Part shown: positions 16,135 through 60,122 of the stretch, piece after piece
Position numbering within the stretch: the first letter of the stretch is position 1
Layout: every line of letters begins with the position of its first letter
Source of the DNA: Muribaculaceae bacterium
Lineage (GTDB): Bacteria; Bacteroidota; Bacteroidia; Bacteroidales; Muribaculaceae
Length of the DNA stretch: 64,000 nucleotides
Assembly (NCBI GenBank): GCA_017405965.1
Contig: JAFQZK010000003.1
Span: 124,001 to 188,000 of the forward strand
Direction: 5' to 3'
Made by a program: the position numbers and the translations under genes
Notes under the pieces: generated by a model
The model's input: only the letters and a program-made list of their open reading frames with translations
What the model was told of the DNA's origin: nothing
Database searches by the model: none

Positions 16135-17772
16135 ATGAAGAAAAGTTTGATTATTGTACTGTTGGCCATGTTGGGCATGACCCAGCTGTCGGCACAAGAG
16201 GGAGAGTACATCCCGTTTGTGCGTGAAGGCGTGAAGTGGGTATGCTATTTCAATTCCTATAATTGCCATGCTTATGAGGTTGATTGGAGCAGGTTTTATC
16301 CCCTAGGTAAAACCTATTTCACGCTTGAAATCAAGGGCGATACTGTAATAAACGGTAAGGCCTACAAGAAGATGCACAAGTACACCGGCGACGCCATCAA
16401 CGCGCAATGCGACACGGTCCCTGTTTGCCTGCGTGAAGAGGGCAAAATAGTCTATGGCATCATACCAAATCCTGAAGAAAACTATGGCCTTTTTATAGGG
16501 TATGGAATGTGGTTCTACAAAAGACCAGACATCAATATCGTTGATGCAGCACGGAGCGGAGAGGAATTCATCCTGTATGACTTCAGCAATCCTGAAAACT
16601 ATTACAATACCATCTACTACAGGCGCAACGGAGATGGCAGCCTGAGCAATCAGAGTAGTGATTTCAATTATGAAGGGTGTGATGAAGTCCCCATCGGTGA
16701 CAGGATGGCCAGGCGATATCGTTTCAAATACTTTGGCTTTTTTGACTTGTTTTTCACTGAGGGAATAGGCTATGACGGCAGTATTAGCGGCTATACTTTG
16801 GGCTATCTTTATATAAGCAGAGACCAAATGATGCATCCTTGGTTTCAAGGGTTCTTCCTTAATCATGTGGAGGAAAACGGCAAGATCATCTACAAGGGCA
16901 TCAATTATGAGCAGGTGATGCCCGCTGATGGTCATATGCCCATGGCGCAGGAAGGAAAGATCTGGGTCAATGAGCGTGTTATCATCAACAAGGGTGATAC
17001 CACGCGCAGCTACTACTGCTATGAAGTCAAAGGGAACGACCCACGCTTCCCCAGTTATGACGTAAAACAGTGCCACTATTATACTGGTGCGAAGATCGAT
17101 CCCGAGAATGACAGCATCGTCAGCTCGTTAGCTGACCCCTTACTAACGTCTGAAGTTGAATCCCTTTACAATTGGCCTCTTCAAGAAAACATTGAAAAGA
17201 ACCGCAGCATGCTTCGTCACGAAGAACTCACTAACGGCTATCTGCTCTATTGGTTGCAGCACGGAGAGCCAGAAAGGACCATACGGTTCTATGTTGCTCG
17301 ACAGAACTCGCCGAAGGTACTGACCGTGGACAATTTCATCGCTGTGGATCCTGTCGAGGTCGACGGTTTCACGTGCGAGCGTTACGCCTACGTCAACGAG
17401 CAGGGCGAGCCGCAGGCCTACCTGGTCGAGGGCATCGGCTTCGACAGCCGCTGCATGGGTGACCTGCTGACGCCCTTCACGCGCGAGCCCGACCACGATG
17501 CCGACTATCAGGAGTACTGCGGCCTGAGCCACGTGATCAAGAACGGCAAGATCATCTACAAGGGCCTGTGCTACGACGAGCGCCGCGTCCAGCTCCTGAC
17601 CGCCGACGTGAACGGTGACGGCGTGGTGAACATCAGCGACGTGACGACTTTGATCGAGATGATCCTGCACGAGGGACCGTCGCATATCCGTCCCAATGGC
17701 GACATCAATCAGAACGGCGAGACCAACATCAGCGACGTGACGACCCTCATCGACCTCATCATGAGCGAGTGA
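16135..17772 (+). CDS. Exported two-module protein with dockerin-like tail
   Basis: 545 residues with signal peptide (LLAMLGMTQLSA/QE). I do not recognise the body, but it looks like two divergent copies of one module of roughly 240 residues: each opens with an 'EGxxW...V' stretch and a 'KGDT..' strand, includes a KYTGDAI / HYYTGAKI element, and closes with NGKIIYKGINYE or NGKIIYKGLCYD. The C-terminal ~57 residues (from about 17599) are two dockerin-like loops: DVNGDGVVNISDVTTLIEMI and DINQNGETNISDVTTLIDLI, with the D-x-N-x-D/N-G and final D pattern. The N-terminal half of the gene is AT-richer than the last 500 bp. Confidence 0.75.
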   Translation: MKKSLIIVLLAMLGMTQLSAQEGEYIPFVREGVKWVCYFNSYNCHAYEVDWSRFYPLGKTYFTLEIKGDTVINGKAYKKMHKYTGDAINAQCDTVPVCLREEGKIVYGIIPNPEENYGLFIGYGMWFYKRPDINIVDAARSGEEFILYDFSNPENYYNTIYYRRNGDGSLSNQSSDFNYEGCDEVPIGDRMARRYRFKYFGFFDLFFTEGIGYDGSISGYTLGYLYISRDQMMHPWFQGFFLNHVEENGKIIYKGINYEQVMPADGHMPMAQEGKIWVNERVIINKGDTTRSYYCYEVKGNDPRFPSYDVKQCHYYTGAKIDPENDSIVSSLADPLLTSEVESLYNWPLQENIEKNRSMLRHEELTNGYLLYWLQHGEPERTIRFYVARQNSPKVLTVDNFIAVDPVEVDGFTCERYAYVNEQGEPQAYLVEGIGFDSRCMGDLLTPFTREPDHDADYQEYCGLSHVIKNGKIIYKGLCYDERRVQLLTADVNGDGVVNISDVTTLIEMILHEGPSHIRPNGDINQNGETNISDVTTLIDLIMSE

Positions 17773-17887
17773 GGTGCCCTGGTAATAATAGGAGAGCACA
17801 TAATAATGCCAAGTACACCCTACTGAGAAAAGAGAGAGTCGAAAAACACGAGGGAAAAATAGTGTGATCAAGATTCATCAAAATCCT

Positions 17888-17927
17888 GGTGCGGCGCCAC
17901 TGTTTTAAGTCCAGTGTGCGCCGCACC
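17888..17927. terminator. Strong hairpin between convergent genes
   Basis: GGTGCGGCGC-CACTG pairs with CAGTG-T-GCGCCGCACC around a 9-nt loop, a near-perfect 15-bp stem 116 bp after the dockerin gene and before the convergent ferredoxin gene. There is no long T-run on either side, so its role as a terminator is inferred from position. Confidence 0.5.
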
Positions 17928-17986
17928 GCTGATTTCTTCGGTATATGTCGGAAAAAATGTGCTCTTGTCAAGATGACAGTGACATG

Positions 17987-18022
17987 AAAAAGCGGCGGCC
18001 GTTCCCGAAAAGGAACAGCCGC
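17987..18022 (-). terminator. Terminator of the ferredoxin gene
   Basis: On the minus strand a GCGGC...GTTCC / GGAAC...GCCGC hairpin (17992-18022) is followed by five T (A-run 17987-17991). The outer arm overlaps the 32-bp repeat copy B. Confidence 0.8.
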
Positions 18023-18049
18023 AACCGTTTGTTTGTTGTTGATGTCTGA
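18018..18049 (-). repeat. 32-bp repeat, copy B
   Basis: Identical to 13504-13535. It begins just downstream of the ferredoxin stop codon (TAA on the minus strand, 18051-18053) and runs into the terminator stem. Confidence 0.9.
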
Positions 18050-18050
18050 A

Positions 18051-18221
18051 TTATTCGCCGGGAGCGATTGCACCAGTGGGGCAAGCGTCGGCACAAGTGC
18101 CGCAGTCCAGGCAGGTGTCAGGGTCGATCGAGTAGATATCGCCTTCCTTGATTGCATCAGCGGGGCATACCGACTGGCAGGTACCGCAAGCAACACAGCT
18201 ATCAGAAATTACGTAAGCCAT
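18051..18221 (-). CDS. 2[4Fe-4S] ferredoxin, 56 residues
   Basis: Small cytosolic electron carrier. The protein starts MAYVISDSCVACGTCQSVCP and contains two CxxCxxCxxxCP cluster motifs: CVACGTCQSVCP and CLDCGTCADACP, the classic bacterial 2[4Fe-4S] arrangement, ending AIAPGE. Full family length. The likely electron partners are the pyruvate:ferredoxin oxidoreductase or hydrogenase type enzymes of anaerobes (general knowledge; none is in the window). Its promoter is on the minus strand at 18275-18282 and its terminator at 17987-18022. It is transcribed against its neighbours. Confidence 0.96.
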   Translation of the reverse strand: MAYVISDSCVACGTCQSVCPADAIKEGDIYSIDPDTCLDCGTCADACPTGAIAPGE

Positions 18222-18274
18222 AGTGTAGTGTAATTTAAGTGAATTAGTTAATAATGTAAAAGTAAACAGTTCGA

Positions 18275-18307
18275 CAAAAGTAGTGCTTTTATTTGAAATG
18301 GTAGCAA
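18275..18307 (-). promoter_or_regulatory. Promoter of the ferredoxin gene
   Basis: On the minus strand TACTTTTG (18275-18282) fits the -7 TAnnTTTG, and TTG (18305-18307) is a plausible -33 at 22 bp. The leader is about 47 nt. Confidence 0.6.
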
Positions 18308-18377
18308 GTTTTGCCGTTTTTTCTTTCTCGTGAGTTGTTTTTTTGTGTTTTGATGTTCATTTCTCGCGTTTTTTTTG

Positions 18378-18385
18378 TACTTTTG
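18378..18385 (+). promoter_or_regulatory. -7 element for the SUI1 gene
   Basis: TACTTTTG fits TAnnTTTG, 67 bp before the ATG at 18453. No well-spaced -33 box is visible. Confidence 0.5.
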
Positions 18386-18452
18386 ACCTTAGATGAGGGA
18401 GATGCAGGAAGGTTTAATCCTGCCACAGTTTTTTACATAGATTTTTAGACTA

Positions 18453-28319: not shown

Positions 28320-28450
28320 CAAGCGATACATTGAAGACCCAAAAAGCGTATTGCTCAACTTTAAGCATCAAGTGGGGCAATTCAGTCTACGCTGTTAGTG
28401 TCACATGAGAAATGTCTGGACTGGGATGTTTCAGTAAAAACTATTACCGC

Positions 28451-31400
28451 ATGATGAAAAAACTACTTTTTACGTTGATGTTGCTCTTGACGGCTGTCTT
28501 TACCATAGCCGCCCAACAAATCCCGCTACCCGAAATCGTCGTAACTCCCAGCGAGGACTCTTACACCTTTACGGTCATTGACCAGGGTGAATTCCAAATC
28601 ACATGCAGCTATTATGATTTTGAGACAGGCGAATATGGGCCGGAGGAGGAAATACAATTTCCCCTCACGATTTACCGTACCGAGCGCCCCAAGCAATTAT
28701 ATGTTAAGGCTTTTCAGGCTGTGGGAGAATATGAGTTTCACACGTTCACTGAGTATCATTTCATCGCCCCACTAGGCGACGAGATTCCTCCTGCCCCCGA
28801 AATCACAGTAACCAAAGAGGATAATGGTTGGAATGGCTTCCATTATGTTGTCAGTGCAGTTGGTGACGGGAATGTGATTTTTTCCAGAAAACTGAGTGAT
28901 GGATCATGGGAGCGTGCTACAGATTCTGATTCTGAGGGACACCCTTGTTTTATCTTGAGTCCGGAGATAAATATAGATCTATTGTATCAATTCAAGGCTT
29001 ATCAAGAATCAGAGTTTAAGCAATTCTATCTGGACGACGAACATACATGTTATTACACTGTACGCAGTCCGGAGACACGATGGGAGTATGTGGTGCCAGG
29101 GATTAAGTCTCTTAATGGCGATATAATTTTTCAAATGGCTGGTGAAGGCCTGCTTTCCGTTACTTATACTGGCAATGAGGAGGTAACCATCTCGGTTACA
29201 ATTAACGACAATCCTGTCGAATTGGTTGATGGTATGGTTCATCTCGTTCCTGGCTATAATATTATCCATGCGATTGTTTCGGCCGAAGGGTATATTAACT
29301 CTCCACTTGAAGGTTGGTTTGAGATACGTTGGAATGCCCCCACGCCTGAACCGCAGATTATTGTCACTCCAGGCGATCAGGCCTATACGATTGAAGCCGT
29401 CGGTGAGGGCGAGGTACACCTTCGTTGTTATCATGAATGTGATTATCACCATCTGCATGGCGATGTAGAGAATCCTGTCACGATCTCCCGAACGCAATTC
29501 GATGAATTCTTTAATTTTGAGGCAACGGCTCGCTTGGGCGAAGGTTATAATGAGGCAATAGTGAGTCAAGATGTGTGGGTTCCCGCATTGGGCGCGACGC
29601 CAATGCCCGATATCGTCTTCACCGAGGATGAAACCGGCTGCGAGGTGCGTGCCGTTGGCCAAGGCGAGGTGCACCTCTTTCTTGGAGGCAGGTACCATGG
29701 CCAGGAGGTAGAGAATCCTTATAGGATTCCACGGCCTTACCAACAGGACTACTATAGTTTTGAGGCTTACGCCCAGGCCGAAGGCCAATCGGAGAGCGAA
29801 GTGGCATGGGAGACTATTGAAGTGACCCCGTCACCGTGGATTATCTCCAACGAAACATCCCCTTCGGTTTATTTTGAAGAGATTGATAACGTCGATTATG
29901 AAATAACGGCCGGGGGAACGGGAACAGTGCGTCTGTTCATGAATGGAATAGAAGTAGATAATCCATATACTGTGCAAACCCTGCTTATTGATGATATCTG
30001 CAAGTTTACTGCCACAGCCAAGGAACCAGGAAAGCTGACAGGAGATTCTTATGATCCTATCGAAATCAAACCAGGCCCCAAACGTGAGCATTTAGTAACG
30101 ATTACTTCTGATAATGACTTTTATTATGTCACGGCAACGGGTGATGGATATATAACACTGGAAACGTACAATGATAATTACTATCAATATGGCGATTATA
30201 ATTATCATCATTCAGCAGAAGGCGAAGGTACTGTTAGTGTGGCTATCCCACGAGAGGGCTTTTCTCAATGGACATATGTTGCAAAGCGACTCAACGTCGA
30301 TGATGGAGATATACTCGGCTTTGACGTGGGTTCATTCATGGTTGTGTTCAAGGAATTGACTACGACAAGCCCTGTCATCTACGGTTGGCCTAGTAATGAT
30401 CAATACAAAATAGTCGCTAGACCTCACTTTAGTTTTTTATTTGATAGTGGTGATCACATTCAAGTACAATATGGTACCCAGCTGATGCTTGATGGCACTG
30501 TGGTTGAAGAACCCTATTATATTGATCGTGAAGAACATGATAAGTATTATAATTTCAGCGCAGTGACGACACTTCGTTACGAGAGATATGAATATTTGGG
30601 TATAATTAATGGCGTACGCTTTTATTCATCTGAGCCTCTTGAGACGATAGAGGTTTTTAGTGACGTTGTCGATGCAACCATTAAAGTTCGTGCTGGTGGC
30701 GATAATTTCTATTTTGACTATGAAGATAACGTTTGGGACGAGGAGACGGGAGAAGAAACGCGATTACTCCGCTATGAAGTCAATGTGAGAAAAAGGGCCT
30801 CTGGTGAGTCGTCGGACAATTATTACGCTCATCATGCAGCGGTCAAAGATAATCATGATTACTCAGGAATCGCAATTGTGCCTGATCGGGTAGAGATAGA
30901 GTACAATGATATGCACGACCCAGAACCTGATTATATATATTATGGCTTTTGGGGAGATGTCATATATGAATTTAAGGCCTTGACTTGGCCTGGAGTTTCT
31001 GGTTGGGGTAGAGATGGTGTTTACTTTAGAGAGTTTTGTCCTGTTACGGCGATTGCCGATGATGCTTTCTTGGGCAACAGTGCGTTGACGGGTGTGGAAA
31101 TCGGCAAGAATGTGACTAGTATCGGCAAGGATGCCTTTAAGGGCTGCTCTGACCTGACCGATGTGACCTGCTGGGCGATGACTCCACCCACAATGACCAA
31201 TGTTGAGACTTTTGACGAGGCTTGCTACAGCTACGCGACGCTGCGAGTGCCTGAGTCCTCGGTTGATAAGTACAAGAATGCTGACTGGTGGCGCAAGTTC
31301 CGGCACATTGAGGGCGTTGCTGTCCCCGGTCTGCCTGGTGATGTTAACGGTGATGGGGAACTCGGCATTGCCGACATCAATACGTTGATAGATGCGATTC

Positions 31401-31501
31401 TGATGTCAAACACCCAATCCATTTATGACATCAACGGTGACGGTGAGATAACCATATCTGATGTGATGGCGTTGATTGATATGTACCTTTCAATGGACTG
31501 A
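28451..31501 (+). CDS. Large exported repeat protein with BspA-like LRR and dockerin-like tail
   Basis: About 1016 residues from the ATG at 28451 (MMKKLLFTLMLLLTAVFTIA, a clean signal peptide); an in-frame ATG at 28412 would put 13 polar residues before it and is less likely. The body is a string of beta-rich repeats of about 95 residues, each opening with a P-x-I-x-x-T pattern (EIVVTPSEDSYTFTV, PQIIVTPGDQAYTIEAV, PDIVFTEDETGCEVRAV) and a G-x-G-E-V-x-L core. Near the end is a BspA-type leucine-rich unit (DDAFLGNSALTGVEIGKNVT) and finally two dockerin-like loops (DVNGDGELGIADINTLIDAI and DINGDGEITISDVMALID). Mostly AT-rich. Likely a surface adhesin or glycan-binding protein. Confidence 0.75.
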   Translation: MMKKLLFTLMLLLTAVFTIAAQQIPLPEIVVTPSEDSYTFTVIDQGEFQITCSYYDFETGEYGPEEEIQFPLTIYRTERPKQLYVKAFQAVGEYEFHTFTEYHFIAPLGDEIPPAPEITVTKEDNGWNGFHYVVSAVGDGNVIFSRKLSDGSWERATDSDSEGHPCFILSPEINIDLLYQFKAYQESEFKQFYLDDEHTCYYTVRSPETRWEYVVPGIKSLNGDIIFQMAGEGLLSVTYTGNEEVTISVTINDNPVELVDGMVHLVPGYNIIHAIVSAEGYINSPLEGWFEIRWNAPTPEPQIIVTPGDQAYTIEAVGEGEVHLRCYHECDYHHLHGDVENPVTISRTQFDEFFNFEATARLGEGYNEAIVSQDVWVPALGATPMPDIVFTEDETGCEVRAVGQGEVHLFLGGRYHGQEVENPYRIPRPYQQDYYSFEAYAQAEGQSESEVAWETIEVTPSPWIISNETSPSVYFEEIDNVDYEITAGGTGTVRLFMNGIEVDNPYTVQTLLIDDICKFTATAKEPGKLTGDSYDPIEIKPGPKREHLVTITSDNDFYYVTATGDGYITLETYNDNYYQYGDYNYHHSAEGEGTVSVAIPREGFSQWTYVAKRLNVDDGDILGFDVGSFMVVFKELTTTSPVIYGWPSNDQYKIVARPHFSFLFDSGDHIQVQYGTQLMLDGTVVEEPYYIDREEHDKYYNFSAVTTLRYERYEYLGIINGVRFYSSEPLETIEVFSDVVDATIKVRAGGDNFYFDYEDNVWDEETGEETRLLRYEVNVRKRASGESSDNYYAHHAAVKDNHDYSGIAIVPDRVEIEYNDMHDPEPDYIYYGFWGDVIYEFKALTWPGVSGWGRDGVYFREFCPVTAIADDAFLGNSALTGVEIGKNVTSIGKDAFKGCSDLTDVTCWAMTPPTMTNVETFDEACYSYATLRVPESSVDKYKNADWWRKFRHIEGVAVPGLPGDVNGDGELGIADINTLIDAILMSNTQSIYDINGDGEITISDVMALIDMYLSMD

Positions 31502-31755: not shown

Positions 31756-33840
31756 ATGAAAAAGCTTTTTATTGCAGCAACGTTAGCAGTGCTGCCGGTG
31801 TTGGCCTTTGCACAGGGGTGGCCCGCGAATTATAGTGGCGTGATGTTGCAGGGATTCTACTGGGACTCTTTCAACGACAGCAAGTGGACTAACCTGGAGT
31901 CGCAGGCCGACGAGTTGGCCGAGTTCTTCAAACTGGTGTGGATTCCCCAGAGCGCCAGCTGTAACGGCACGTCGATGGGCTATGACGCCGTGTACTGGTT
32001 TTCCAACTACAATAGCTCCTTCGGCACCAAGACGGAGTTGCAGTCGATGATCAATTCCTTCAAGAGTAAGGGCATCGGCACCATTGCCGACGTGGTCATC
32101 AACCACCGCAAGAGCATCAACGACTGGGTGACGTTCCCCAGCGAGACCTATAAGGGTGTGACTTACAAGTTACTGTCCACCGACATTTGCCGTGACGATG
32201 ACGGCGGTGCGACACTCAACTGGGCCAACCAGAACGGCAAGTCGCTGAGTGCCAACAACGACACCGGCGAGGACTGGAGCGGACTGCGTGACCTGGACCA
32301 CAAGAGCACTAATGTGCAGAATGCCGTCAAGGCCTATATCCAGATGCTGCTCAACGACCTGGGCTACGCGGGTTTCCGCTACGATATGACCAAGGGTTAC
32401 TCGGCCAGCTATACGGGTATGTATAACGCCTATGCCAACCCGACCTATTCGGTGGGCGAGTATTGGGACGGTAACCTGAGCGCCGTCAAGGCATGGATCG
32501 ACGGCACCAAGGTCAACGGAGTGGTGCAGAGTGCGGCCTTTGACTTCCCGTTCCGTTACACCGTGCGCGACGCGGTCAACAACAACAATTGGACCGGTCT
32601 CTCGGGCAGCGGCAAGGGCCTGAACATGGATGCCAATTACAGGCGTTACTCGGTGACCTTCGTCGAGAACCACGACACGCAGTATCGTGACGCCAGCAAT
32701 CCTCAGGATCCCATCAACCAGTATATCGCGGCCGCCAACGCCTATATGCTGTCCTTGCCTGGCACGCCATGCGTTTTTCTCAAGCACTGGTTGAGTTACA
32801 AGGAAAGCATCAAGCAGATGATCTATGCCCGCCAACTCGCTGGCATCACCAACACCAGCACGACGGCGCAGCAGGGTTCCAGCTCGGCGAACAATTATTA
32901 TGCCCAGCGCACGACGGGCACTCGTGGCACATTGCTCGTTGCCATGGGTAACACCGCCTATACGATTCCTTCGACCTATGTTCTCGTGGTCAGCGGCACC
33001 AACTACCGCATGGCGCTGAGCAAGACCACTGAGACCGCTTGGGCCAGCATTCCCAGCGGCACGCACCAGGATCCGTTCAACGTCACGTTGACGGCAGTGA
33101 GCCAAACCGCCGGTGCCAAGATCGTCTATACGCTCGACGGCAGTGAGCCCACAGCCACCAACGGCACTGTGATAGCCAGTGGCGGCACCGCCCGCATCAA
33201 CAAGTGCTTGACCATGAAGGCCGGTCTGCTGATCAATGGTGCCGTTACGGGTGTGATTACCCGCCATTACACTGTCGTGAATGAGGAGTATGACCCCTAT
33301 GAGATTACCGTCTATCTCAAGGACCCGACCGTTTCGCCCAACAACTGGCCGCAGGTGGCCTACTACTGCTGGGACAGCAACGACGTGCAGCAGTGCGGCA
33401 ACTGGCCTGGCCAAGTGGTGACCGACACCCGCATGGTCAACGGCGTGAAATTCTATTACAAGACCTTCACCATTACCGGCACCAACTATAGTGTCAACTT
33501 CGTGTTCAGTCAGGGCGGCAGCACTGCCGGCAGCCACCAGACTGTCGATGTGACGGGCGTGAGGGAAACCTCCTTCTTTGAAGTGACGACCCAGACCAAC
33601 AAATACCAGGTGCGCAATGTCACGGCCGATTATCTGCCTTATCTTGACGAAGAGCCTTTGCTCGGTGACGTGAACGGCGACGGCCAGGTCAACATCAGCG
33701 ACGTCACCCTGTTTGTCAACAGCATGATGGCCGAGGCCCTGGAGAATCTTGTCGTTGAGAATGCCGACATCAACCGTGACGGCTTCATCAACATCAGCGA
33801 CGTGACGGCGCTTATCAATATGATTCTCAGCAGCCGTTGA
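31756..33840 (+). CDS. Secreted GH13 alpha-amylase with starch-binding module and dockerin-like tail
   Basis: 694 residues with signal peptide (ATLAVLPVLAFA/QG). The GH13 barrel spans about 25-430; the catalytic residues are D210 in FRYDMTKGY, E235 in SVGEYWDG and D307 in VENHDTQ. Then comes a chitobiase-C-like domain (about 440-510, KIVYTLDGSEPTATNG) and a domain resembling a CBM26 starch-binding module (about 515-620, VAYYCWDSNDVQQCGNWPG). The tail has two dockerin-like loops (DVNGDGQVNISDVTLFVNSM and DINRDGFINISDVTALINMI). It should cleave alpha-1,4-glucans outside the cell; the tail suggests surface attachment or complex assembly. No Sus-type TonB transporter lies nearby. Confidence 0.9.
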   Translation: MKKLFIAATLAVLPVLAFAQGWPANYSGVMLQGFYWDSFNDSKWTNLESQADELAEFFKLVWIPQSASCNGTSMGYDAVYWFSNYNSSFGTKTELQSMINSFKSKGIGTIADVVINHRKSINDWVTFPSETYKGVTYKLLSTDICRDDDGGATLNWANQNGKSLSANNDTGEDWSGLRDLDHKSTNVQNAVKAYIQMLLNDLGYAGFRYDMTKGYSASYTGMYNAYANPTYSVGEYWDGNLSAVKAWIDGTKVNGVVQSAAFDFPFRYTVRDAVNNNNWTGLSGSGKGLNMDANYRRYSVTFVENHDTQYRDASNPQDPINQYIAAANAYMLSLPGTPCVFLKHWLSYKESIKQMIYARQLAGITNTSTTAQQGSSSANNYYAQRTTGTRGTLLVAMGNTAYTIPSTYVLVVSGTNYRMALSKTTETAWASIPSGTHQDPFNVTLTAVSQTAGAKIVYTLDGSEPTATNGTVIASGGTARINKCLTMKAGLLINGAVTGVITRHYTVVNEEYDPYEITVYLKDPTVSPNNWPQVAYYCWDSNDVQQCGNWPGQVVTDTRMVNGVKFYYKTFTITGTNYSVNFVFSQGGSTAGSHQTVDVTGVRETSFFEVTTQTNKYQVRNVTADYLPYLDEEPLLGDVNGDGQVNISDVTLFVNSMMAEALENLVVENADINRDGFINISDVTALINMILSSR

Positions 33841-43154: not shown

Positions 43155-44366
43155 ATGGACATCAACAAGATACGCGAGGATTATCCCATCCTGCAACGCC
43201 AGATCGAGGGCCGTCCGCTCATCTATCTCGACAATGCCGCCACGTCCCAGACGCCGCGTTCGGTGGTGGAGGCCATCGACCAGATGTACTTCCACTACAA
43301 GGCCAATGTGCATCGTGGTGTACACACGCTGTCGCAAGAAGCCACCGACATGGTGGAACTCACACGCGAGAAAGTGCGGGCGTTTATCAATGCGGGCAGC
43401 GTGCAGGAGGTGATTTTCACCCGCGGCACCACCGAGGGCATCAACCTGGTGGCCTCCTCGTTCGGCCAGATGCTGGAGAACGGCGACGAAATCATCGTCA
43501 CCGTGATGGAGCATCACAGCAACATCGTGCCTTGGCAACTCATCGGTCAGCGTAAGCGTGTCACCCTGCGTGTCGTGCCCATCAACGACCGCGGCGAGGT
43601 CGATATGGAGGCCTATGAGGACCTGTTCAGCGACAGCACCCGTTTTGTGGCGCTGGCCCATGTGTCCAACGTGCTGGGCACTGTCAATCCCGTGAAAGAG
43701 ATGATTGCCGTCGCCCACCGTCATGGTGTGCCCGTACTCATCGACGGAGCCCAGGCCGCTCCTCATGTGCCTGTCGATGTTCAAGACCTGGATTGTGATT
43801 TTTATGCCTTCTCGAGTCACAAGATGTATGGCCCCGCCGGGGTGGGCATCCTCTACGGCAAGCGTTACTGGCTGGACAAGATGCCGCCTTACCAGGGTGG
43901 GGGAGAAATGATAGGTCAGGTGACGTTTGAGCGCACAACTTTCGCCGAGTTGCCGTTCAAGTTCGAGGCCGGCACTCCTGACTTTGTGGATATCGCCGCC
44001 TTTGGTGCCGCGATCGACTATGTGCAGGGTCTGGGATTAGATAACATCGCTGCCCATGAGCATCAGTTGCTCAAGGCTGCCGTCGAGGGACTTGAGACAA
44101 TAGACGGGATGCGCTTCTTTGGCACCGCAACGGACAAGAGCGGCGTGGTGTCCTTCCTCGTTGGCGACATCAGCAGTTATGACATGGGACTGCTGCTCGA
44201 CAAGTTGGGTATAGCGGTGCGCACCGGCCACCATTGTGCCCAGCCGTTGATGGCCCGCTACGGTGTGACAGGCATGGTGCGTGCCTCGTTTGCCGTGTAC
44301 AACACGCTCGACGAGGTGGCTTCCTTTGTCGCTGCTACCCGTCGTGTGGCCGACATGCTTCGCTAG
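43155..44366 (+). CDS. sufS: Cysteine desulfurase SufS
   Basis: 403-residue PLP enzyme that takes sulfur from cysteine for the SufBCD scaffold. The PLP lysine is in AFSSHKMYGPAGVGILYG and the active Cys is in RTGHHCAQPLM, the group II pattern. N-terminal IYLDNAATSQTP is a family hallmark. Last gene of sufBCDS; no sufE or sufU lies in the operon or nearby, so the sulfur shuttle must be encoded elsewhere or be dispensable. Confidence 0.96.
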   Translation: MDINKIREDYPILQRQIEGRPLIYLDNAATSQTPRSVVEAIDQMYFHYKANVHRGVHTLSQEATDMVELTREKVRAFINAGSVQEVIFTRGTTEGINLVASSFGQMLENGDEIIVTVMEHHSNIVPWQLIGQRKRVTLRVVPINDRGEVDMEAYEDLFSDSTRFVALAHVSNVLGTVNPVKEMIAVAHRHGVPVLIDGAQAAPHVPVDVQDLDCDFYAFSSHKMYGPAGVGILYGKRYWLDKMPPYQGGGEMIGQVTFERTTFAELPFKFEAGTPDFVDIAAFGAAIDYVQGLGLDNIAAHEHQLLKAAVEGLETIDGMRFFGTATDKSGVVSFLVGDISSYDMGLLLDKLGIAVRTGHHCAQPLMARYGVTGMVRASFAVYNTLDEVASFVAATRRVADMLR

Positions 44367-44394
44367 AACAACGAAATCAAAATATTTAATAGGG

Positions 44395-45870
44395 ATGAAG
44401 AAACCTACTTTTTTATTGGCTTTGGCATTTTTGTGCAGCCTGTTTTCACTTGCCGACACGTCAACGACGGTGGTCAATATCGGCTCAACCACTCAGATGA
44501 CTTTGTCAGAATTAATCGGTAAAGGTCTGCCAGTGGTTTATATCGAGACTGTTGACGGTGTGAAGCCCACGTGCGATACCGTTTATGCACCTCCTGGCTG
44601 CTGGGGCGAAACCGTCAACTCTGAGAAAGTACCCGGACGCCTTTTCATCTATGACCGTGTTGCCGGTATGGACAGTGTGCTGTACGACAGCGGCGACTAT
44701 GAGAAGAACGTCGGCGGCATGACTATCAAGGTGCGTGGTAACACCAGTGCCGCCACCGATGAGAAGAAACCTTACAAGATCAAGTTGCAAAAGAAAGCTG
44801 ACCTGTTGCTCCGTGGCGTGGACTCGGTGTACAAAGACAAGGAGTGGCTTCTGCTCAAGGACCCGTTTGTGTTCACCAACACGGCTTTCCGCATCAGCGA
44901 GATGGTGGGAATGATATGGGTGCCTGGGCACCGTTATGTGAACGTGGTCATCAACGACGATTATCACGGCATCTACTTGTTGACCGAGGCTGTGAAACGC
45001 AATCCCGATTGCCGCTTGAATGTGGACAAGAACTGTGGGTACATCTTCGAGTGCGACCTGTACTGGTGGAATGAGAGCGTATATGTCAGGTCCAATGAGG
45101 CCCCCAGTTACAATTACACCTTCAAGTACCCCGAGGATGAGGATATCACCCAGGAACAGCTGGATTATGCCCAGACGATGGTCCGGGCCTACGAGGCCTC
45201 GCTCACCCAGGACAACTACCCTGACCTGATCGACGTGAGGTCGTTTGCTGCCTGGTGTCTGGTGCATGACATTGTGGGCACAAAGGATGGTGGTGGCTGC
45301 AACCGCTTCTACTCCAAGTATGACACCACGGCCCAGAGCAAGATTTTCATGCCTGTGGCATGGGACTTTGACTTGGCTGAACGCACTACCGGGGCATGGT
45401 CGCGTATCCATGAGGTTTACATGAAGAAACTGTTCAATAACCCCAACCGTGCTTTCGTTCATGAGTATATACGTCTGTGGTGCGAGATGCGTGATACCTA
45501 TTTGAGTGACGTCCACTCCTACTACATGAACTTTGTGAATTCTCCTTTGGGCAGGGCTTTGCAAGACTGTTATCACCTCGACAACAAGGTGTGGGATACC
45601 AACAGGTGGTTCCAGAACGCTGCAACCGACCGCTTGATGTGGTTGCAAAGGCGTTATACTTGGCTAGACTCGAATATCATGTCGTTCCATGTGCCTAACG
45701 ATGTGAACATCGATGGCGTGGTGAATATCACCGATGTGACTGAGCTCATCAAGATGGTGATGGGGACCAAACGTGCGCTGATTACGGGTGACATCAATGG
45801 CGACGAGGAAGTCAACATCAGCGATGTCACGTCACTCACCAATCTGCTAATGAATAGCATTAATGATTGA
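44395..45870 (+). CDS. Exported CotH-kinase-like protein with dockerin-like tail (tandem copy 1)
   Basis: 491 residues starting at the ATG at 44395 (MKKPTFLLALAFLCSLFSLA, a good signal peptide); the open frame extends upstream over the end of sufS without a signal. The CotH core is clear: TIKVRGNTSAATDEKKPYKI, DKEWLLLKDPFVFTN, HGIYLLTEAVKRNPDCRLN, and the later metal-region MPVAWDFDLAERTTG. CotH proteins are atypical secreted kinases in spore coats and are also joined to dockerins in some cellulosome systems. The last ~58 residues are dockerin-like loops (DVNIDGVVNITDVTELIKMV and DINGDEEVNISDVTSLTNLL). Overlaps or abuts the next paralogue. Confidence 0.85.
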   Translation: MKKPTFLLALAFLCSLFSLADTSTTVVNIGSTTQMTLSELIGKGLPVVYIETVDGVKPTCDTVYAPPGCWGETVNSEKVPGRLFIYDRVAGMDSVLYDSGDYEKNVGGMTIKVRGNTSAATDEKKPYKIKLQKKADLLLRGVDSVYKDKEWLLLKDPFVFTNTAFRISEMVGMIWVPGHRYVNVVINDDYHGIYLLTEAVKRNPDCRLNVDKNCGYIFECDLYWWNESVYVRSNEAPSYNYTFKYPEDEDITQEQLDYAQTMVRAYEASLTQDNYPDLIDVRSFAAWCLVHDIVGTKDGGGCNRFYSKYDTTAQSKIFMPVAWDFDLAERTTGAWSRIHEVYMKKLFNNPNRAFVHEYIRLWCEMRDTYLSDVHSYYMNFVNSPLGRALQDCYHLDNKVWDTNRWFQNAATDRLMWLQRRYTWLDSNIMSFHVPNDVNIDGVVNITDVTELIKMVMGTKRALITGDINGDEEVNISDVTSLTNLLMNSIND

Positions 45871-45877
45871 TAGCGCG

Positions 45878-47356
45878 ATGAGAAGAGTTATTGCGTTGAT
45901 GTCGGTCATGGGGCTGTTGACTTTCCCCATGAGGGCTCTTGCCGACACGTCAACGACGATGATTGCACTGGGTGACACCGTACAGATGACGCTGAGTGCC
46001 ATCATCGGGCAGGGACTGCCGGTAATGTATGTCGAGACTGTTGACGAGGAGGAGCCGACGTGTGACTATGTGTCATCCCCTCCCGGGTGTATGGGTTATT
46101 CGATTACCAATGCGACTAAGGTGCCTGGCCGACTGATTGTGTACAGTCGCATCGACGGCATGGACAGCGTGCTGTATGACAGTGGCGATTATGAGAAGGA
46201 TCTGAGCGGCATGACCATCAAGATACGTGGCAACGCGACGGCCTACGATGTCAAGAAACCCTACAAGATCAAGCTGGAGAAAAAGAAAGATTTGCTGTTC
46301 AGGGGCAACGAGAGCCTGTACAAGGACAAGGAATGGCTGTTGCTCAGGGATGATTACATGACCACCGTCGCTGGCCTCAAAGTGAGTGAACTGGTGGGTA
46401 TGCCGTGGACTCCGCAATATCACTATGTGAATGTGATTATGAATGGACGCTACCGTGGCGCCTATTTGTTGTGTGAATCGGTGAAACGCAATCCTGATTG
46501 CCGATTGAATGTTGACAAGGATTGGGGCTTCATCTTTGAACTAGACCCTTACTGGTGGAATGAGGACGTGTATGTGAACTCGTCTAAGTCTCCATCCTAT
46601 AATTACACGTTCAAGTACCCCGACAGCGACGATATCTTGCCCGAGCAACTGGAGTACATGCAGAGGCTTGTGACAGTCTTTGAAGCCAGTCAGAGGCAGC
46701 AGAATTATCCCGACTTGATTGATGTGAGGTCGTTTGCCGCCTGGTGTCTGGTGCATGACATCGAGGGCACCAAGGATGGTGGCGGATGTAACCTGTATTA
46801 CATGAAGTATGATACCACGGCCCAGAGCAAGATTGTCATGCCGCTGACGTGGGATTTTGACATGTCGGAGCGAACTGTGTCGGAATGGTCGCGCAGCCAT
46901 ACCGAACACATGAAGAATCTGTTCAACAATACCAGCAATCGCGCGTTTGTCGGCGAATTTGCTGCATTGTGGCGTGAGATTCGCGGCACAATTGTCAACG
47001 ACATGAGGGAGTATATGTTGGCTTTTCGTCAGTCCGATGAGGGTGTTGCATTGAGTAACAGTTTTGTACTTGACAGGATTGTTTATAACCGCAACCTGAG
47101 TGTTATGTCTAATACGATGTCGCGCTACACCTGGATACAGGGGCGTTTTCCCTGGATGGATGATTCCGTCACGGCATTGAATCCGCTGGGTGACGTGAAT
47201 GTTGACGGCAAGATAGACATTACCGATGTGACCATGCTGATACAATCCTTCATGAACGACAGTGCCGAGTCAATGTATGCCGCAGATGTCAACGAGGACG
47301 GCAAAGTGAACATCACCGATGTGACGCAGTTGATATCTAGGATTCTTGAATTCTGA
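45878..47356 (+). CDS. Exported CotH-kinase-like protein with dockerin-like tail (tandem copy 2)
   Basis: 492 residues from the ATG at 45878 (MRRVIALMSVMGLLTFPMRA signal); an ATG at 45863, overlapping the previous stop by 8 bp, is the alternative. It is closely similar to the preceding protein in every block: TIKIRGNATAYDVKKPYKIK, DKEWLLLRDDYMTTV, VKRNPDCRLNVDKDWGFIFE, LTWDFDMSERTVSEWSR. The tail has DVNVDGKIDITDVTMLIQSF and DVNEDGKVNITDVTQLISRI. The tandem arrangement shows a local duplication; divergence of the middle suggests different targets. A bidirectional terminator follows. Confidence 0.85.
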   Translation: MRRVIALMSVMGLLTFPMRALADTSTTMIALGDTVQMTLSAIIGQGLPVMYVETVDEEEPTCDYVSSPPGCMGYSITNATKVPGRLIVYSRIDGMDSVLYDSGDYEKDLSGMTIKIRGNATAYDVKKPYKIKLEKKKDLLFRGNESLYKDKEWLLLRDDYMTTVAGLKVSELVGMPWTPQYHYVNVIMNGRYRGAYLLCESVKRNPDCRLNVDKDWGFIFELDPYWWNEDVYVNSSKSPSYNYTFKYPDSDDILPEQLEYMQRLVTVFEASQRQQNYPDLIDVRSFAAWCLVHDIEGTKDGGGCNLYYMKYDTTAQSKIVMPLTWDFDMSERTVSEWSRSHTEHMKNLFNNTSNRAFVGEFAALWREIRGTIVNDMREYMLAFRQSDEGVALSNSFVLDRIVYNRNLSVMSNTMSRYTWIQGRFPWMDDSVTALNPLGDVNVDGKIDITDVTMLIQSFMNDSAESMYAADVNEDGKVNITDVTQLISRILEF

Positions 47357-54832: not shown

Positions 54833-57355
54833 ATGAGGAAAGTATTTACGTTATTAACCATGTGTATGCTGGCAAGCATGGCTTGGGCCGGTGTAATCAC
54901 ATTTGATCCTGCGGTTGACAAAGGCACGTCAGGCGAACAGGCTTCGGCTTATGATGTACCGAAGGAGAATGTGAACATCCATGTGTCCAATGGCTTGGTT
55001 GCTGCTGACAAAGGCGTTTGGGCCTATCGTGTTTACAAGGGCCAGACGATGACCTTCACTTGTCAGGATGCTTCAATCCTTAAAATTGAGATTGAATGCG
55101 CTGCAAACGGTGTCGAAAAGTATGGCCCCGGTTGTTTCACTGTTGACCTCCCCTCTTACACCTATGAGGAGAGTGGCCCTAACGGCACTTGGGTAGGCTC
55201 GTCAAACAGCGTCGTTTTCACGGCAGCGTCCAATCAGGTGCGTGCCACCAAGATTATCGTTACCACTGGCGAGGCTGGTCTTGTTCCTCCCGTTATCTCA
55301 CCTGCCGGAGGCAAATTCTACCTCCCCTTGAATGTGAGCATCACTTGCCCCACTCCCAACGCTCAGATTTACTACACCACCAATGGCAGTGAGCCCTCCA
55401 CTGGCTCGACCCGTTACACGGCTCCCTTCAGCGTAAGTACTAACACTACCGTGAAGGCCATCTCGGTTCTTGACAGCGATGTCAGTGATGTGGTAAGCGC
55501 TGAATTTACCTATGGTGGCGATGCAACCAGGGTTGCTAACATTGCTGCCTACAAGGCTGTTGCCGACGAGACCCTCGTTGTCTTCACCAATCCCGTGACT
55601 GTGCTGGCTCAGAGTGGCAGCCGCATGTTTGTGCAGGATGATACGGGCAACGCACTCTTCTTTGGCAATGCTGGCCAGAACTACAAGAATGGTGACGTCA
55701 TTCCCGCTGGCTTTGCTGGCGTGAAGACGACCTGGGACGGTGAAGCCGAATTGAAGGACCTCGAGTGCTTCATGGCCCCGACAAGCAATAGCCCCGTTGC
55801 TCCTCTGGAGATTACTTGCAACCAAGTGAGCGGTAACCTCTTCGGCAAATATGTGCTGTTGAAGAATGTCACCTTTGATGTGTCTGCCAAGAAAGTCCAG
55901 GATGAATCGGGTGAGGTTCCCTACTATTGCAACATGAACATCTCTAACGACGACATTCTTGCAGGTCACACCTATAACCTGTGGGCTATCGTTGGCTCTT
56001 ATGGTAAGCAGAACACCACCTATCAGTTGCTGCCTATTAAGATTGAGGACCTTGGTGGCGAAGAGCCTCCCATCGAGGGTGTTGCCCTGTGTGAATTGGG
56101 CGATATCGCCGATGGAACGAAGGTGACTATCAAGAACGACGCTATCGTATTGGGTCAGGTGGGCAGCTACCTCTACCTTAAGGATACAGAGTGCGGCTTT
56201 GGCCTCGCTTATGGCTCCTGCGGTAAGACTTATAAGCCTGGTGATGTAATCCCCGCTGGCTTTGGCGGTGAGAAAACCACCTATGACATGGAGCCTGAGT
56301 TGAAGAGCCTCACCGGCTTCCAGGCTGCCAAGAGCAACATCGGCGGCGTTAATGCCCTCGAGGCCGCAGCACGTCTCACCCGCATCAGTGAGATCGGTCA
56401 TGACATCTGGGGTCAGTATGTCAAGATTGAGAACGTCTTCATCGATCTCGATGGCAAGACCTTCCGTGATGCCGATGGCAACGCAATCGGTTACTACGAC
56501 CGCTTCAGCATCCAGTATCCCTCGGATCTGAGCAAGCCCTACACGGTATATGCCATTGTGGGTTCCTTCAGGACCAACTATCAGTTGCTGCCCACTCGCA
56601 TCGACTTCAAGGAGCCTCCTGTGAATGTTGCTTGCATCGAAGAACTGTATGCACTGAATCAAGGTACGGTTGGTCACTTCACCACTCCGCTGACCGCAGT
56701 TTATCAGAATGGTCCCAGACTGTACGTAAGGGATTACGACGACCATTTCACCCTGGTTTACGGTTCCTTGACTGCCACCTTCGAGAATGGTGACTACATC
56801 AACGGCGCTGAGGCAAGCTGGACCCTGTACCAGAACAACAAGCAGTTGACACCTGTTGCCGAGACCTTCGTAGTCGCTGGTCACAGCACTCCCGTTGAGC
56901 CCGAGTACATGTCAATTGAGGAAGTTTCGGCCGACATGATTCATCGTTTCTTAGCTTTCGAGGTAGTGACTATCGAGTGCGTTGAGGAAAATGGCAGGAA
57001 GAACTACACCATGTATGACGAGACTGGCTCGATGATCCTGTACGATCAGTTCCGCGAGTTGGAGAAGATCCAGAATTTTGACACTGACTTCTATGTTGAA
57101 GGCTTCTTGACGGTTTACAATGGTACGCTGGAGCTCTATCCCACGAAGGTTCAACCTCTTAACGACTGTGGCCTCAAGGGTGACGTGAATGGTGACGATG
57201 AGATCAACATCGCTGACGTGAATGCCTTGATCGACATCATCCTGAGCGGTAAGACTCCTGATGACTGCACCATGTGGCGTGCCGATGTGGCTGCCGACAA
57301 TGAGCTCGGTATCGCCGACGTGAATGCCTTGATCGACATGATCTTGAAGATGTAA
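54833..57355 (+). CDS. Exported multidomain protein with OB-like repeats and dockerin-like tail (tandem copy 1)
   Basis: 840 residues with signal peptide (LTMCMLASMAWA/GV). After a jelly-roll-like first domain (GPGCFTVDLPS...AASNQVRATKIIVTTG) comes a chitobiase-C-like Fn3 domain (IYYTTNGSEPSTGSTRYTAP). Then follow three or four repeats of an OB-like domain, each with a 'GS/YLYLKD..CGF.LAYG..G.TYK.GDVIPAGF' pattern (residues about 235-370, 420-560, 600-720). The tail is two dockerin-like loops: DVNGDDEINIADVNALIDII, and a weaker second, DVAADNELGIADVNALIDMI, which lacks the central Asp-Gly. Likely a surface-exposed binding protein; the ligand is unknown. Confidence 0.75.
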   Translation: MRKVFTLLTMCMLASMAWAGVITFDPAVDKGTSGEQASAYDVPKENVNIHVSNGLVAADKGVWAYRVYKGQTMTFTCQDASILKIEIECAANGVEKYGPGCFTVDLPSYTYEESGPNGTWVGSSNSVVFTAASNQVRATKIIVTTGEAGLVPPVISPAGGKFYLPLNVSITCPTPNAQIYYTTNGSEPSTGSTRYTAPFSVSTNTTVKAISVLDSDVSDVVSAEFTYGGDATRVANIAAYKAVADETLVVFTNPVTVLAQSGSRMFVQDDTGNALFFGNAGQNYKNGDVIPAGFAGVKTTWDGEAELKDLECFMAPTSNSPVAPLEITCNQVSGNLFGKYVLLKNVTFDVSAKKVQDESGEVPYYCNMNISNDDILAGHTYNLWAIVGSYGKQNTTYQLLPIKIEDLGGEEPPIEGVALCELGDIADGTKVTIKNDAIVLGQVGSYLYLKDTECGFGLAYGSCGKTYKPGDVIPAGFGGEKTTYDMEPELKSLTGFQAAKSNIGGVNALEAAARLTRISEIGHDIWGQYVKIENVFIDLDGKTFRDADGNAIGYYDRFSIQYPSDLSKPYTVYAIVGSFRTNYQLLPTRIDFKEPPVNVACIEELYALNQGTVGHFTTPLTAVYQNGPRLYVRDYDDHFTLVYGSLTATFENGDYINGAEASWTLYQNNKQLTPVAETFVVAGHSTPVEPEYMSIEEVSADMIHRFLAFEVVTIECVEENGRKNYTMYDETGSMILYDQFRELEKIQNFDTDFYVEGFLTVYNGTLELYPTKVQPLNDCGLKGDVNGDDEINIADVNALIDIILSGKTPDDCTMWRADVAADNELGIADVNALIDMILKM

Positions 57356-57494: not shown

Positions 57495-57532
57495 AATCGG
57501 GACTCACTGTGTGTGGGTCCCGATTTCTTTTT
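57495..57532 (+). terminator. Terminator between the tandem paralogues
   Basis: AATCGGGAC (57495-57503) pairs with GTCCCGATT (57517-57525), followed by TTTCTTTTT. Sits 140 bp after the first paralogue. Confidence 0.88.
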
Positions 57533-57623
57533 CAAGCTGTAAGAACACAGCTTTATAAAAAGTATCATAATTTTATTTTTTCTTCCCATTTCACTTGCGT
57601 TTTCGTTTTATTATCTCAGCACA

Positions 57624-60122
57624 ATGAAAAAAGTATTCTCTCTATTGTTTGCTTGCCTGTTGTCCCTGACAATGTCGGCAACAACCCTTGTCGTGGTCTT
57701 TGACGCCACGGTAGACGTGGGTAACGGCTCCACAACAGCCGAACCGTTCATGATTGAAAAAGATGGAGTCACCATGTCGGTCTCCAATGGTGTTGCCAAC
57801 GGCAATCAATATCGCATCTACAAGGGACAGACGCTCACCATCTGCAGCGCTGTTGGACCTATTATCAACATCGACTTCCATTGCGTGGCGATGGATAATG
57901 AAAAATACGGCCCTGGCTGTTTTGTAGCCAATGTGGGCGATTATGGCTTTGAGGGTTATGACGGCCATTGGAGCGGTCTTTCCCAGTGTGTGACCTTCAC
58001 TGCCGCATCCAATCAGGTGCGCATTACCAAAATCGTGGTCACTGTTCAAATCGACGGTGTGGCTCCTCCCACGATAAGACCGGCAGGCGGCACTTACTAT
58101 GAACCCATCGAGGTGAGCATCACCAGTGCTGATCCCGAGGCCGTGATTCATTACACGGTCGATGGAAGCATGCCCACCGTTGACTCCCCAGTTTACAGCG
58201 CCCCATTCGCGCTCGCCAGCGATGCTACAGTCCAAGCCGTGGCCGTACTGGATGGCGAGACAAGTGCTGTGTCGACTGCCCGGTATGTCTTCAATTCTCA
58301 AGGAGACTATGTCCTTGTTGACAGCATCAAGCAGCTGAAGGCGCTGGACGACAATACCAGAGTTAAATTCAATAATCCTGTGCAAGTCATCGCTCAAATT
58401 GGTAATTACATGTGGGTCAAGGATAACAGCGATTGTGTCCAACTGTATGGCCCTGCTGGACAGATCTACATGCCTGGTGATATGATTCCAGCCGGTTTCA
58501 TGGGAACCAAGACGGTTTATCAAGGTGTGGTCGAATTGAAAGACCTCAGCGATTTCCGACCTGCAGCGGTCAACAGGTCTTTGGAACCCGAGGTGGTCAC
58601 CATTCCTGAACTGAATGACGATTTGTTGTCACACTATCTACTGATTAAAGATGTGACGTTTAGCTACGATGGCACGAGTTACTACATCACCGATGCCGAG
58701 GGCAACACTTGTCCGTTGTATTTGAGAGACTCCAACTTTCCTGCGCCAGACAATCTCGTGGGACGCTGGGATGTATATGTGGTCTTGAGTGCCTATAGGG
58801 GCGTTTATCAGTTGATACCCGTCAATAACCCAATTCATGGCTACGATCCCATTGGGTTTGGGGATATCTACAATCCCGAGATTCCCAATGGCACGAAGAT
58901 GATGTTTGAGTATGATGCCACTGTCCTGCTCCAATATGGCAGGTATCTGTATGCACGTGACATGACGGGCTATGCGCTGATTTATGGCGATACGCAACAA
59001 ACCTACAACCAGGGTGATGTCATTCCTGCAGGCTTTATGGCCACCAAGACGACTTACCAAGATATGCCGCAATTGACTTATCCCGAGAACTTCATGCCCG
59101 CTACTGGCCAAGTGGAACTCGATGCCGAGGACATGGAATTGGAAGACATCGATGTGTTTAAATTCTGCCATTATGTGAAGGTGGCGCAGGTGATGATTAC
59201 GCCCAACAACGATAGTCCGAACGGATCGGGCATATTGACCGACGGCTACGGTGACACGCTTAACTATTACGACCCCCTCGGTCTATTGCGACAAGGCGTC
59301 CTTGAATCGGGGAAGTGGTACACGGTCTATGGCGTTGTGGGGATGTACCGTCAGCAGCCTGAATTCATACTCACCAAAATCGAGGGATTGGCTCCGCTGC
59401 CCTTGATTGATGTGGCTGACCTGAGTGAATTGTATAACCTGGACATGTTACAACCGGCGCATTTCACGACACCGCTGATAGCTGTATATCAGAATGGTCC
59501 CGAACTGTATGTCAAGGATGCTGAAGGATGCTTCGGCCTCGTTTACGGTAACCTGGAGAATATTTTCAACAATGGTGACATCATTAATGATGCGGTGTGC
59601 TCGTGGTCAGAATATGATTGGCGCCGAATCCTGAATCCTGATGCCGCGACGTTTGTTTCCAGCGGTTCAGGTCCTGCCGTTGAACCAGAGATGATCCCCA
59701 TCGAGGAAATCTCCAGAGATATGGAGTATTGCTACGTGAAATTCGAGGGCGTGACTCTGGTCAAGGTTGATGATTATGGTCGCTATAAGATGAGTGACGG
59801 GACGGAAGAAATAAGGGTTACTTGGCCAGGGAGGTTGCCTAAGCCCAAGAAGCTAAACTTCCCTTGTACTTATTCTGGTGAAGTGACAATTGCCGATGTC
59901 AATTTCTTGATTGATGTGATTCTGGATAAGCCTAAGTTTTGGGACGGAAAATACGACGTGACCGGAATATTGTATGTTGACAAATATGCAATGAGTGTCA
60001 AAGCCCTTATGGTTACAATCCCGGACGACGCATATGACTTAAATAGCGCTGACCTGAATGGTGACGGGGAAATCAACGTTGCAGACTTGAATGAATTGAT
60101 CGGCATTATCCTTGTAGAATAG
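57624..60122 (+). CDS. Exported multidomain protein with OB-like repeats and degenerate dockerin-like tail (tandem copy 2)
   Basis: 832 residues with signal peptide (LLFACLLSLTMSA/TT). Colinear with the 54833 product: jelly-roll-like start (GPGCFVANVGD, ASNQVRITKIVVTVQ), chitobiase-C-like domain (VIHYTVDGSMPTVDSPVYSA), and OB-like repeats with YMPGDMIPAGFMGTKT and YNQGDVIPAGFMATKT. The tail differs: the first loop lost its metal-binding D-x-N-x-D-G (only SGEVTIADVNFLIDVIL remains), about 40 residues are inserted, and only the last loop, DLNGDGEINVADLNELIGII, is intact. Recent divergence of a duplicated gene. Confidence 0.75.
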   Translation: MKKVFSLLFACLLSLTMSATTLVVVFDATVDVGNGSTTAEPFMIEKDGVTMSVSNGVANGNQYRIYKGQTLTICSAVGPIINIDFHCVAMDNEKYGPGCFVANVGDYGFEGYDGHWSGLSQCVTFTAASNQVRITKIVVTVQIDGVAPPTIRPAGGTYYEPIEVSITSADPEAVIHYTVDGSMPTVDSPVYSAPFALASDATVQAVAVLDGETSAVSTARYVFNSQGDYVLVDSIKQLKALDDNTRVKFNNPVQVIAQIGNYMWVKDNSDCVQLYGPAGQIYMPGDMIPAGFMGTKTVYQGVVELKDLSDFRPAAVNRSLEPEVVTIPELNDDLLSHYLLIKDVTFSYDGTSYYITDAEGNTCPLYLRDSNFPAPDNLVGRWDVYVVLSAYRGVYQLIPVNNPIHGYDPIGFGDIYNPEIPNGTKMMFEYDATVLLQYGRYLYARDMTGYALIYGDTQQTYNQGDVIPAGFMATKTTYQDMPQLTYPENFMPATGQVELDAEDMELEDIDVFKFCHYVKVAQVMITPNNDSPNGSGILTDGYGDTLNYYDPLGLLRQGVLESGKWYTVYGVVGMYRQQPEFILTKIEGLAPLPLIDVADLSELYNLDMLQPAHFTTPLIAVYQNGPELYVKDAEGCFGLVYGNLENIFNNGDIINDAVCSWSEYDWRRILNPDAATFVSSGSGPAVEPEMIPIEEISRDMEYCYVKFEGVTLVKVDDYGRYKMSDGTEEIRVTWPGRLPKPKKLNFPCTYSGEVTIADVNFLIDVILDKPKFWDGKYDVTGILYVDKYAMSVKALMVTIPDDAYDLNSADLNGDGEINVADLNELIGIILVE

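Follow-up and report, generated by a model that had tools for sequence, protein, structure and literature searches.

Cohesin-dockerin systems are most familiar from Firmicutes, where they serve enzymes that act on plant fibre. In Firmicute cellulosomes the anchors are SLH modules or sortase, adaptor scaffoldins carry a cohesin and a dockerin on one chain, and dockerins outnumber cohesins. A cohesin is also known from NagJ of Clostridium perfringens (PDB 2jh2, 2ozn), where it is borne by an enzyme of a Gram-positive host and there is no scaffoldin array. Here we describe a 64,000-nucleotide stretch of a Muribaculaceae genome (assembly GCA_017405965.1, contig JAFQZK010000003.1, positions 124,001 to 188,000; the window), in which eight exported proteins end in dockerin tails. 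We conclude that these tails are probably docking tags in a cellulosome-like surface complex, in which cargo binds by calcium-dependent cohesin-dockerin contacts to scaffoldins exported by the type IX secretion system (T9SS).

Like the cellulosomes of C. thermocellum and R. flavefaciens, this system has type I-like dockerins, a predicted cohesin fold, chains with both modules and an excess of dockerins. It differs in its Gram-negative host, its LRR- and peptidase-dominated cargo, cohesins that score below the Pfam cut-off, and T9SS-type tails on some scaffoldins; unlike NagJ, its cohesins stand in scaffoldins. In Ca. Stygibacter (Cloacimonadota), a scaffoldin with tandem cohesins bears a C-terminal domain (CTD) for attachment to the cell surface, and, as here, enzymes with signal peptides, peptidases among them, have C-terminal dockerins in a system that is not centred on cellulose (PMC8542988). 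That organism belongs to another phylum and has one 3755-aa scaffoldin with carbohydrate-binding modules and four named enzyme types, and the passage describing it includes neither tail exchange with CTD-bearing homologues nor a cohesin-dockerin adaptor cassette (PMC8542988). Some rumen Bacteroidetes bins are rich in dockerins, certain Bacteroidetes have cohesins, and RUG606 (Prevotellaceae) is among the bins with a multi-cohesin protein; the relevant passages give domain counts, with no architecture, T9SS link or tail exchange (PMC6071333, PMC5830445). Cohesin-dockerin pairing, non-cellulosomal cohesins, a CTD-bearing scaffoldin with dockerin peptidases and domain counts for rumen Bacteroidetes are therefore already in print. 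In the literature as covered by titles and abstract openings (subscription papers were mostly outside reach), we found no report of dockerins replacing T9SS tails. The present case concerns a plug that recurs across the surface proteome of one lineage of Bacteroidales and that, on homologous enzymes, substitutes for a known secretion tag. It makes two questions testable: how dockerin cargo passes the Gram-negative outer membrane, and whether T9SS exports non-covalent passengers.

The original prediction held that the eight proteins share a tail of two EF-hand-like loops resembling a type I dockerin. All eight were confirmed as open frames at the predicted stops and translated, and the dockerin assignment was borne out: Pfam Dockerin_1 (PF00404, gathering cut-off 22.9 bits) matched seven at E<=1e-3 and six above the cut-off, with the protein ending at 60122 at E 0.003. 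The canonical pair of loops, D-x-[NDS]-x-[DNS]-x6-D, was found in only six tails and is degenerate in the proteins ending at 57355 and 60122. A profile built from the dockerins of this genome, window tails included, recovered all eight at 34.2-71.7 bits, while 1600 shuffled tails reached at most 10.4 bits and 2893 reversed open reading frames (ORFs) gave no match. Dockerin_1 also outscored every listed EF-hand model on each tail, the margin being narrow for the protein ending at 60122 (18.2 vs 14.9 bits). Calcium loops of the form Dx[DN]xDG are present in many folds, as a passage in PMC3123361 notes, which would favor chance or generic EF-hand loops of no shared origin; the shuffled, reversed and EF-hand controls refute that explanation, and we consider it close to impossible. 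An NCBIfam scan of the eight proteins gave weak matches only, to dockerin-bearing models, and none of the eight had a C-terminal Por_Secre_tail match at E<=5.

The window occupies C21:124001-188000 of a 3.60-Mb, 40-contig genome that is 96% complete. Dockerin_1 gave 153 matches in this genome with 150 of 322 first-look candidates scored, and about 1 Mb around these matches, window included, held at least 169 distinct dockerin ORFs. Among the 161 outside the window, 157 matched Dockerin_1 at E<=1e-3. Both canonical loops were kept in 131 of the 169, and 167 had a signal-peptide-like start by a loose rule, three of these lipobox-like. The module lay within 10 aa of the C-terminus in 137 of the 164 ORFs with a complete end, at 11-40 aa in five and further inside in 22 (27 if five ORFs cut off at a sequence edge are included). 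Six of the 22 inward dockerins are on scaffoldins, and ten fall within the first 141 residues. Four later dockerin ORFs lie beyond the 169 (two clear, one weak, one partial); 16 extra stretches (319 kb), hand-chosen from previously unscanned DNA, yielded only the partial one. The tails are thus neither confined to the window nor, as shown below, unconserved in relatives.

Two features of these ORFs were seen in passing. Near-N-terminal dockerins following a signal peptide (L035:2795-3805, L030:3515-5500, L024:1123-2754, L247:424-1992) occur on CotH proteins and on proteins with, by eye, an FGE-sulfatase-like end, perhaps where the C-terminus has to be free. Three dockerin proteins of differing length (L083:7-2367, L084:915-1538, L084:9790-11586) have identical last 25 residues, which suggests recent exchange of tails between genes; since one of the three sits at the end of a contig, an assembly effect is the alternative explanation.

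No cohesin had been visible beside the tails. This holds for the window, but 15 cohesin-like domains are encoded elsewhere in the same genome. They were found with a tuned profile (A1), since Pfam Cohesin (PF00963) gave five matches that were all below its cut-off, the best at 22.0 vs 24.1 bits. Because of that score we name the modules cohesin-fold or cohesin-like and not members of PF00963; surveys that use the Pfam cut-off may label such genomes cohesin-free, because cohesins like these are missed at it. Predicted structures of relatives of these cohesins had the cohesin jelly-roll fold. In the first model the structural matches spanned 1-135 and the dockerin half was unmatched; the second (pLDDT 69) has a low-confidence CTD part and says nothing on the CTD.

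The large cohesin proteins have the architecture [LRR or other]-cohesin-dockerin-cohesin-tail, and the small ones consist of signal peptide, cohesin and dockerin. Paired as a two-gene cassette, they occur at C21:192-195 kb, some 4 kb past the window, and again on C31 and C4. C24 has one large cohesin protein, C37 has two dockerin-cohesin-tail proteins, and the gene for a 214-aa cohesin-tail protein precedes the window by about 2 kb (C21:121.5-122.2 kb). Cohesin scaffoldins and dockerin-bearing enzymes, the combination that marks a cellulosome, are present in one genome. The dockerins of the small proteins are of the ISDV/ITDV/VSDV type, the commonest among cargo tails, and the small proteins are most easily read as docking adaptors.

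We examined the distribution of both modules in 148 genomes of the order, taken as Bacteroidales from named relatives. Dockerin_1 was found in 54 and A1 cohesins (E<=1e-4) in 12, all 12 of which had dockerins (hypergeometric 2.4e-6, relatedness ignored). A1 found no cohesin in the two other genera of the family within this sample, and it found cohesins in 37 of 37 genus genomes examined, our own included, one of them by a single match at E 6e-5. Nine loci were taken from metagenome-assembled genomes (MAGs) labelled Prevotellaceae, Muribaculaceae, Bacteroidaceae or Bacteroidales. Eight encode a cohesin-dockerin-cohesin-tail protein (one cut by the contig end) followed by a cohesin-dockerin protein. 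Three of these eight cohesin-dockerin proteins contain extra sequence, either between their modules or behind them, and the ninth locus encodes two dockerin-cohesin proteins. The relatives include rumen and reticulum MAGs by their record titles, and the RUG series is given as of rumen origin in a passage of PMC5830445. Tandem cohesins are found in G003, with proteins of 5, 7 and 8 recognised copies, and in G043, with one of 10. In distant genera (L119, L121, L124, L128, L129, L130, L132) we observed a protein with a dockerin about 185-225 aa before a CTD-like end, encoded beside a multi-cohesin protein. In two named MAGs (L141:4923-6338, L143:683-2065) the small cohesin-dockerin protein extends, by eye, into an FGE-sulfatase-like C-terminal end.

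Cargo was assessed by Pfam on the 161 dockerin ORFs outside the window, counting the 25 commonest families per batch. LRR_5 (42), Peptidase_C10 (15), FGE-sulfatase (11), CotH (9) and Peptidase_M6 (7) led, with at least six subtilases, four endonuclease I and four amylases; glycosidase families were only scattered. Because these families lead and cellulases and hemicellulases do not dominate, the system is not a cellulosome by cargo. Its dockerin cargo does resemble the T9SS clientele of other Bacteroidales, and on account of this likeness we compared the tails of C10 homologues.

The T9SS type A CTD (Por_Secre_tail, PF18962/TIGR04183) is a module unrelated to dockerin that holds the corresponding C-terminal position on homologues of the C10 and CotH proteins; in our genome some scaffoldins still have it, as does a minority of the enzymes. 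CTDs were scored with a home-made lineage profile, and curated Pfam and NCBIfam models served as a check. The C10 peptidases of our genome were counted completely, with all 23 candidates scored, which removes the bias of loci selected for dockerins. Seventeen of the 19 peptidases end in a dockerin, two in a family-type CTD and none in both; a degenerate dockerin (16.5 bits) and a weak CTD (22.8 bits) are among them. Peptidases of this family were located in 94 of the 148 genomes, and 40 loci from 34 of them were examined, hand-picked mostly from the top of the listings and so not random. After four open-ended ORFs were dropped, 47 complete ones remained, of which 41 had a CTD end, two a dockerin and four neither. 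The curated models placed a T9SS tail on 36 (Pfam) or 37 (NCBIfam) of these and Dockerin_1 on two. Both dockerin-ended ORFs belong to G003, a cohesin genome. Genomes without an A1 cohesin contributed 37 CTD ends, one with neither tail and no dockerin; in the same-family genomes G021 and G125 the peptidases have CTDs.

CotH proteins gave a similar picture. Among the 13 of 19 candidates scored in our genome, a partial census whose first counts came from dockerin-selected loci, 12 had a dockerin (nine C-terminal, three nearer the N-terminus), one had neither module and none had a CTD. In 28 genomes without cohesins we counted 26 CTDs, two with neither and no dockerin; four of the 39 relatives' loci (L216, L218, L222, L223, all from cohesin genomes) had been dropped as they held no CotH ORF over threshold. 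From the tail patterns of both families, we conclude that, in this lineage, enzymes whose homologues bear the export-and-anchor tag have a dockerin in its stead.

T9SS parts are encoded as well, with SprA in the genome and two PorU sortases in the window. SprA was tried as a discriminating correlate and rejected, as it occurs in 140 of 148 genomes. Seven cohesin proteins lack a terminal dockerin; the lineage CTD profile recognised four of them, three of which were its seeds. In the dockerin loci it found a CTD on 20 of our ORFs, three of which also had a dockerin, all three scaffoldins; a later-scanned set added four, so that it finds more CTDs in this genome than the general models do (Por_Secre_tail 3, TIGR04183 7). 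The low count by the general models was also considered as proof of replacement and rejected, both for this reason and because cohesin-free genomes of the same family are low too, with 2 Por_Secre_tail matches in G021 and 11 in G125.

These observations lend support to the shared surface-assembly or attachment device that had been proposed for the tails: at least 169 dockerin ORFs, 15 cohesin-like domains whose relatives have a predicted cohesin fold, scaffoldins that in part carry T9SS-type tails, and two PorU sortases encoded in the window. It seems that part of the cell surface of this lineage has been rebuilt on a plug-and-socket principle. Scaffoldins would be exported by T9SS and anchored by PorU, dockerin cargo would be held on them by calcium-dependent binding, and the cohesin-dockerin adaptors would make the array longer or add branches to it. 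Such an assembly would resemble a cellulosome on the cell surface, loaded mainly with LRR/BspA proteins, peptidases, CotH proteins, nucleases and some glycosidases. Cargo without a CTD may cross SprA riding on a cohesin-CTD carrier or may leave otherwise; a passage in PMC9251779 describes SprA as passing folded proteins. A bolder version, which we hold only tentatively and think rather less likely to be true than false, is that the T9SS tag has been outsourced: cargo would have swapped its CTD for a dockerin, would bind cohesin-CTD carriers in the periplasm and would hitchhike folded through the wide pore of SprA. If so, a few scaffoldins would be reusable secretion adaptors for about 170 clients, and a secreted proteome would be addressed by a protein-protein plug and not by individual secretion signals.

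Mutual exclusion of dockerin and CTD on the 19 C10 peptidases, with the dockerin in the CTD position, would also be expected if the dockerin were itself an export or sorting signal, read by T9SS or another machine in place of the CTD, the cohesins then being unrelated adhesive modules or serving scaffoldin-scaffoldin contacts only. The 137 of 164 modules at the extreme C-terminus fit this as well, and NCBI has a "GC-type dockerin domain-anchored" model, to which two window proteins have weak matches (16.5 and 18.5 bits; cut-off 29). A positional C-terminal signal is nevertheless disfavored, because the 22 inward dockerins, ten of them near the N-terminus, should then fail; the presence of dockerins in every A1-cohesin genome and the easy reading of the small proteins as adaptors also speak against it, and we regard it as unlikely. 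The imbalance between at least 169 dockerin ORFs and 15 cohesin-like domains, the dockerin-rich genomes without A1 cohesins and the two degenerate window tails could instead mean that dockerins have lost or changed their specificity and act as calcium-stabilised caps, in self-association or on other ligands, leaving the cohesins to the scaffoldin dockerins alone. Systems of the R. flavefaciens type regularly have such an excess of dockerins over cohesins, however, both loops are intact in 131 of 169 dockerins, and the adaptors share the dockerin type most frequent on cargo, so that we judge this improbable, even more so than a signal function.

Several observations weigh against docking on T9SS-exported scaffoldins. 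Neither the fold nor the co-occurrence is proof of binding between these cohesins and these dockerins, the Pfam model for cohesins remains under its cut-off in this genome, and cargo without a CTD would still need a route out of the periplasm. The CTD portion of the second structure model is of low confidence; among the CTD-recognised cohesin proteins only the 214-aa one is independent of the profile seeds, and those of L023, L034 and L036|4356 were not recognised by that profile. Outside C10 one protein can have both dockerin and CTD, as in a 770-aa ORF without a cohesin (C33:157093) that combines a dockerin with a TIGR04183 tail (24.0 bits), and the low CTD count, shared by G021 and G125, is not due to dockerins alone. 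Exchange is partial in the other cohesin genomes, with two dockerins, four CTDs and three neither among nine C10 peptidases, and one, five and two among eight CotH proteins. Finally, A1 found no cohesin in 42 of the 54 genomes with dockerins, including the dockerin-rich G085, G105, G108 and G097. Dockerins in such genomes may serve another role, or A1 may miss more distant cohesins. In these four, many dockerin matches begin at profile position 8-11, in ORFs that can be as long as 5,500 aa, and they are possibly another class with an unseen partner. The four G085 C10 peptidases examined all end in a CTD.

Coordinates and profile scores of the dockerin-tailed proteins and PorU sortases in the window.
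Feature	Position	Strand	Dockerin tail	Scores
T9SS sortase PorU	4866..8315	+		NF033707 921.7 bits (cut-off 420); Peptidase_C25 274 bits
Second PorU-type sortase	9820..13278	+		NF033707 699.3 bits (cut-off 420); Peptidase_C25 262.5 bits
545-aa exported protein, body without Pfam match	16135..17772	+	17602-17763; two canonical Ca loops	Dockerin_1 37.1 bits; own profile 71.7
1029-aa exported protein, sub-cut-off LRR_5	28412..31501	+	31337-31489; C-terminal	Dockerin_1 28.8 bits; own profile 55.6
GH13 alpha-amylase	31756..33840	+	33664-33828; C-terminal	Alpha-amylase 60.2, Dockerin_1 45.6 bits; own profile 70.4
NAGPA phosphodiester glycosidase	36801..39257	+	39096-39248; C-terminal	NAGPA 44.3, Dockerin_1 32.6 bits; own profile 60.6
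CotH protein	44281..45870	+	45700-45852; C-terminal	CotH 80.5, Dockerin_1 29.8 bits; own profile 55.3
CotH protein	45863..47356	+	47189-47347; C-terminal	CotH 64.4, Dockerin_1 50.5 bits; own profile 67.9
CHB_HEX_C_1 / Fn3_assoc protein	54833..57355	+	57179-57346; second Ca loop degenerate, one canonical	Dockerin_1 20.3 bits (below cut-off); own profile 60.2
Protein similar to 54833..57355	57624..60122	+	59865-60113; first loop lost, insertion between halves	Dockerin_1 18.2 bits; own profile 34.2

The BspA-like repeats that had been ascribed to the 1029-aa protein shrank to an LRR_5 match of about 40 aa under the cut-off (26.2 vs 27.7 bits). The first CotH protein probably starts downstream of 44281, at about 44395, where a signal-peptide-like MKKPTFLLALAFL was seen by eye. 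The two PorU genes lie within 9 kb, with Rex and a weakly FAH-like gene in between; two copies seem unusual, and the pair might be linked to two CTD types. A NACHT-domain NTPase (29.0 bits) at 23288-25312, a possible defence gene, is flanked by a UvrD-like helicase-nuclease (18841-22482) on one side and by arginyl-tRNA synthetase on the other.

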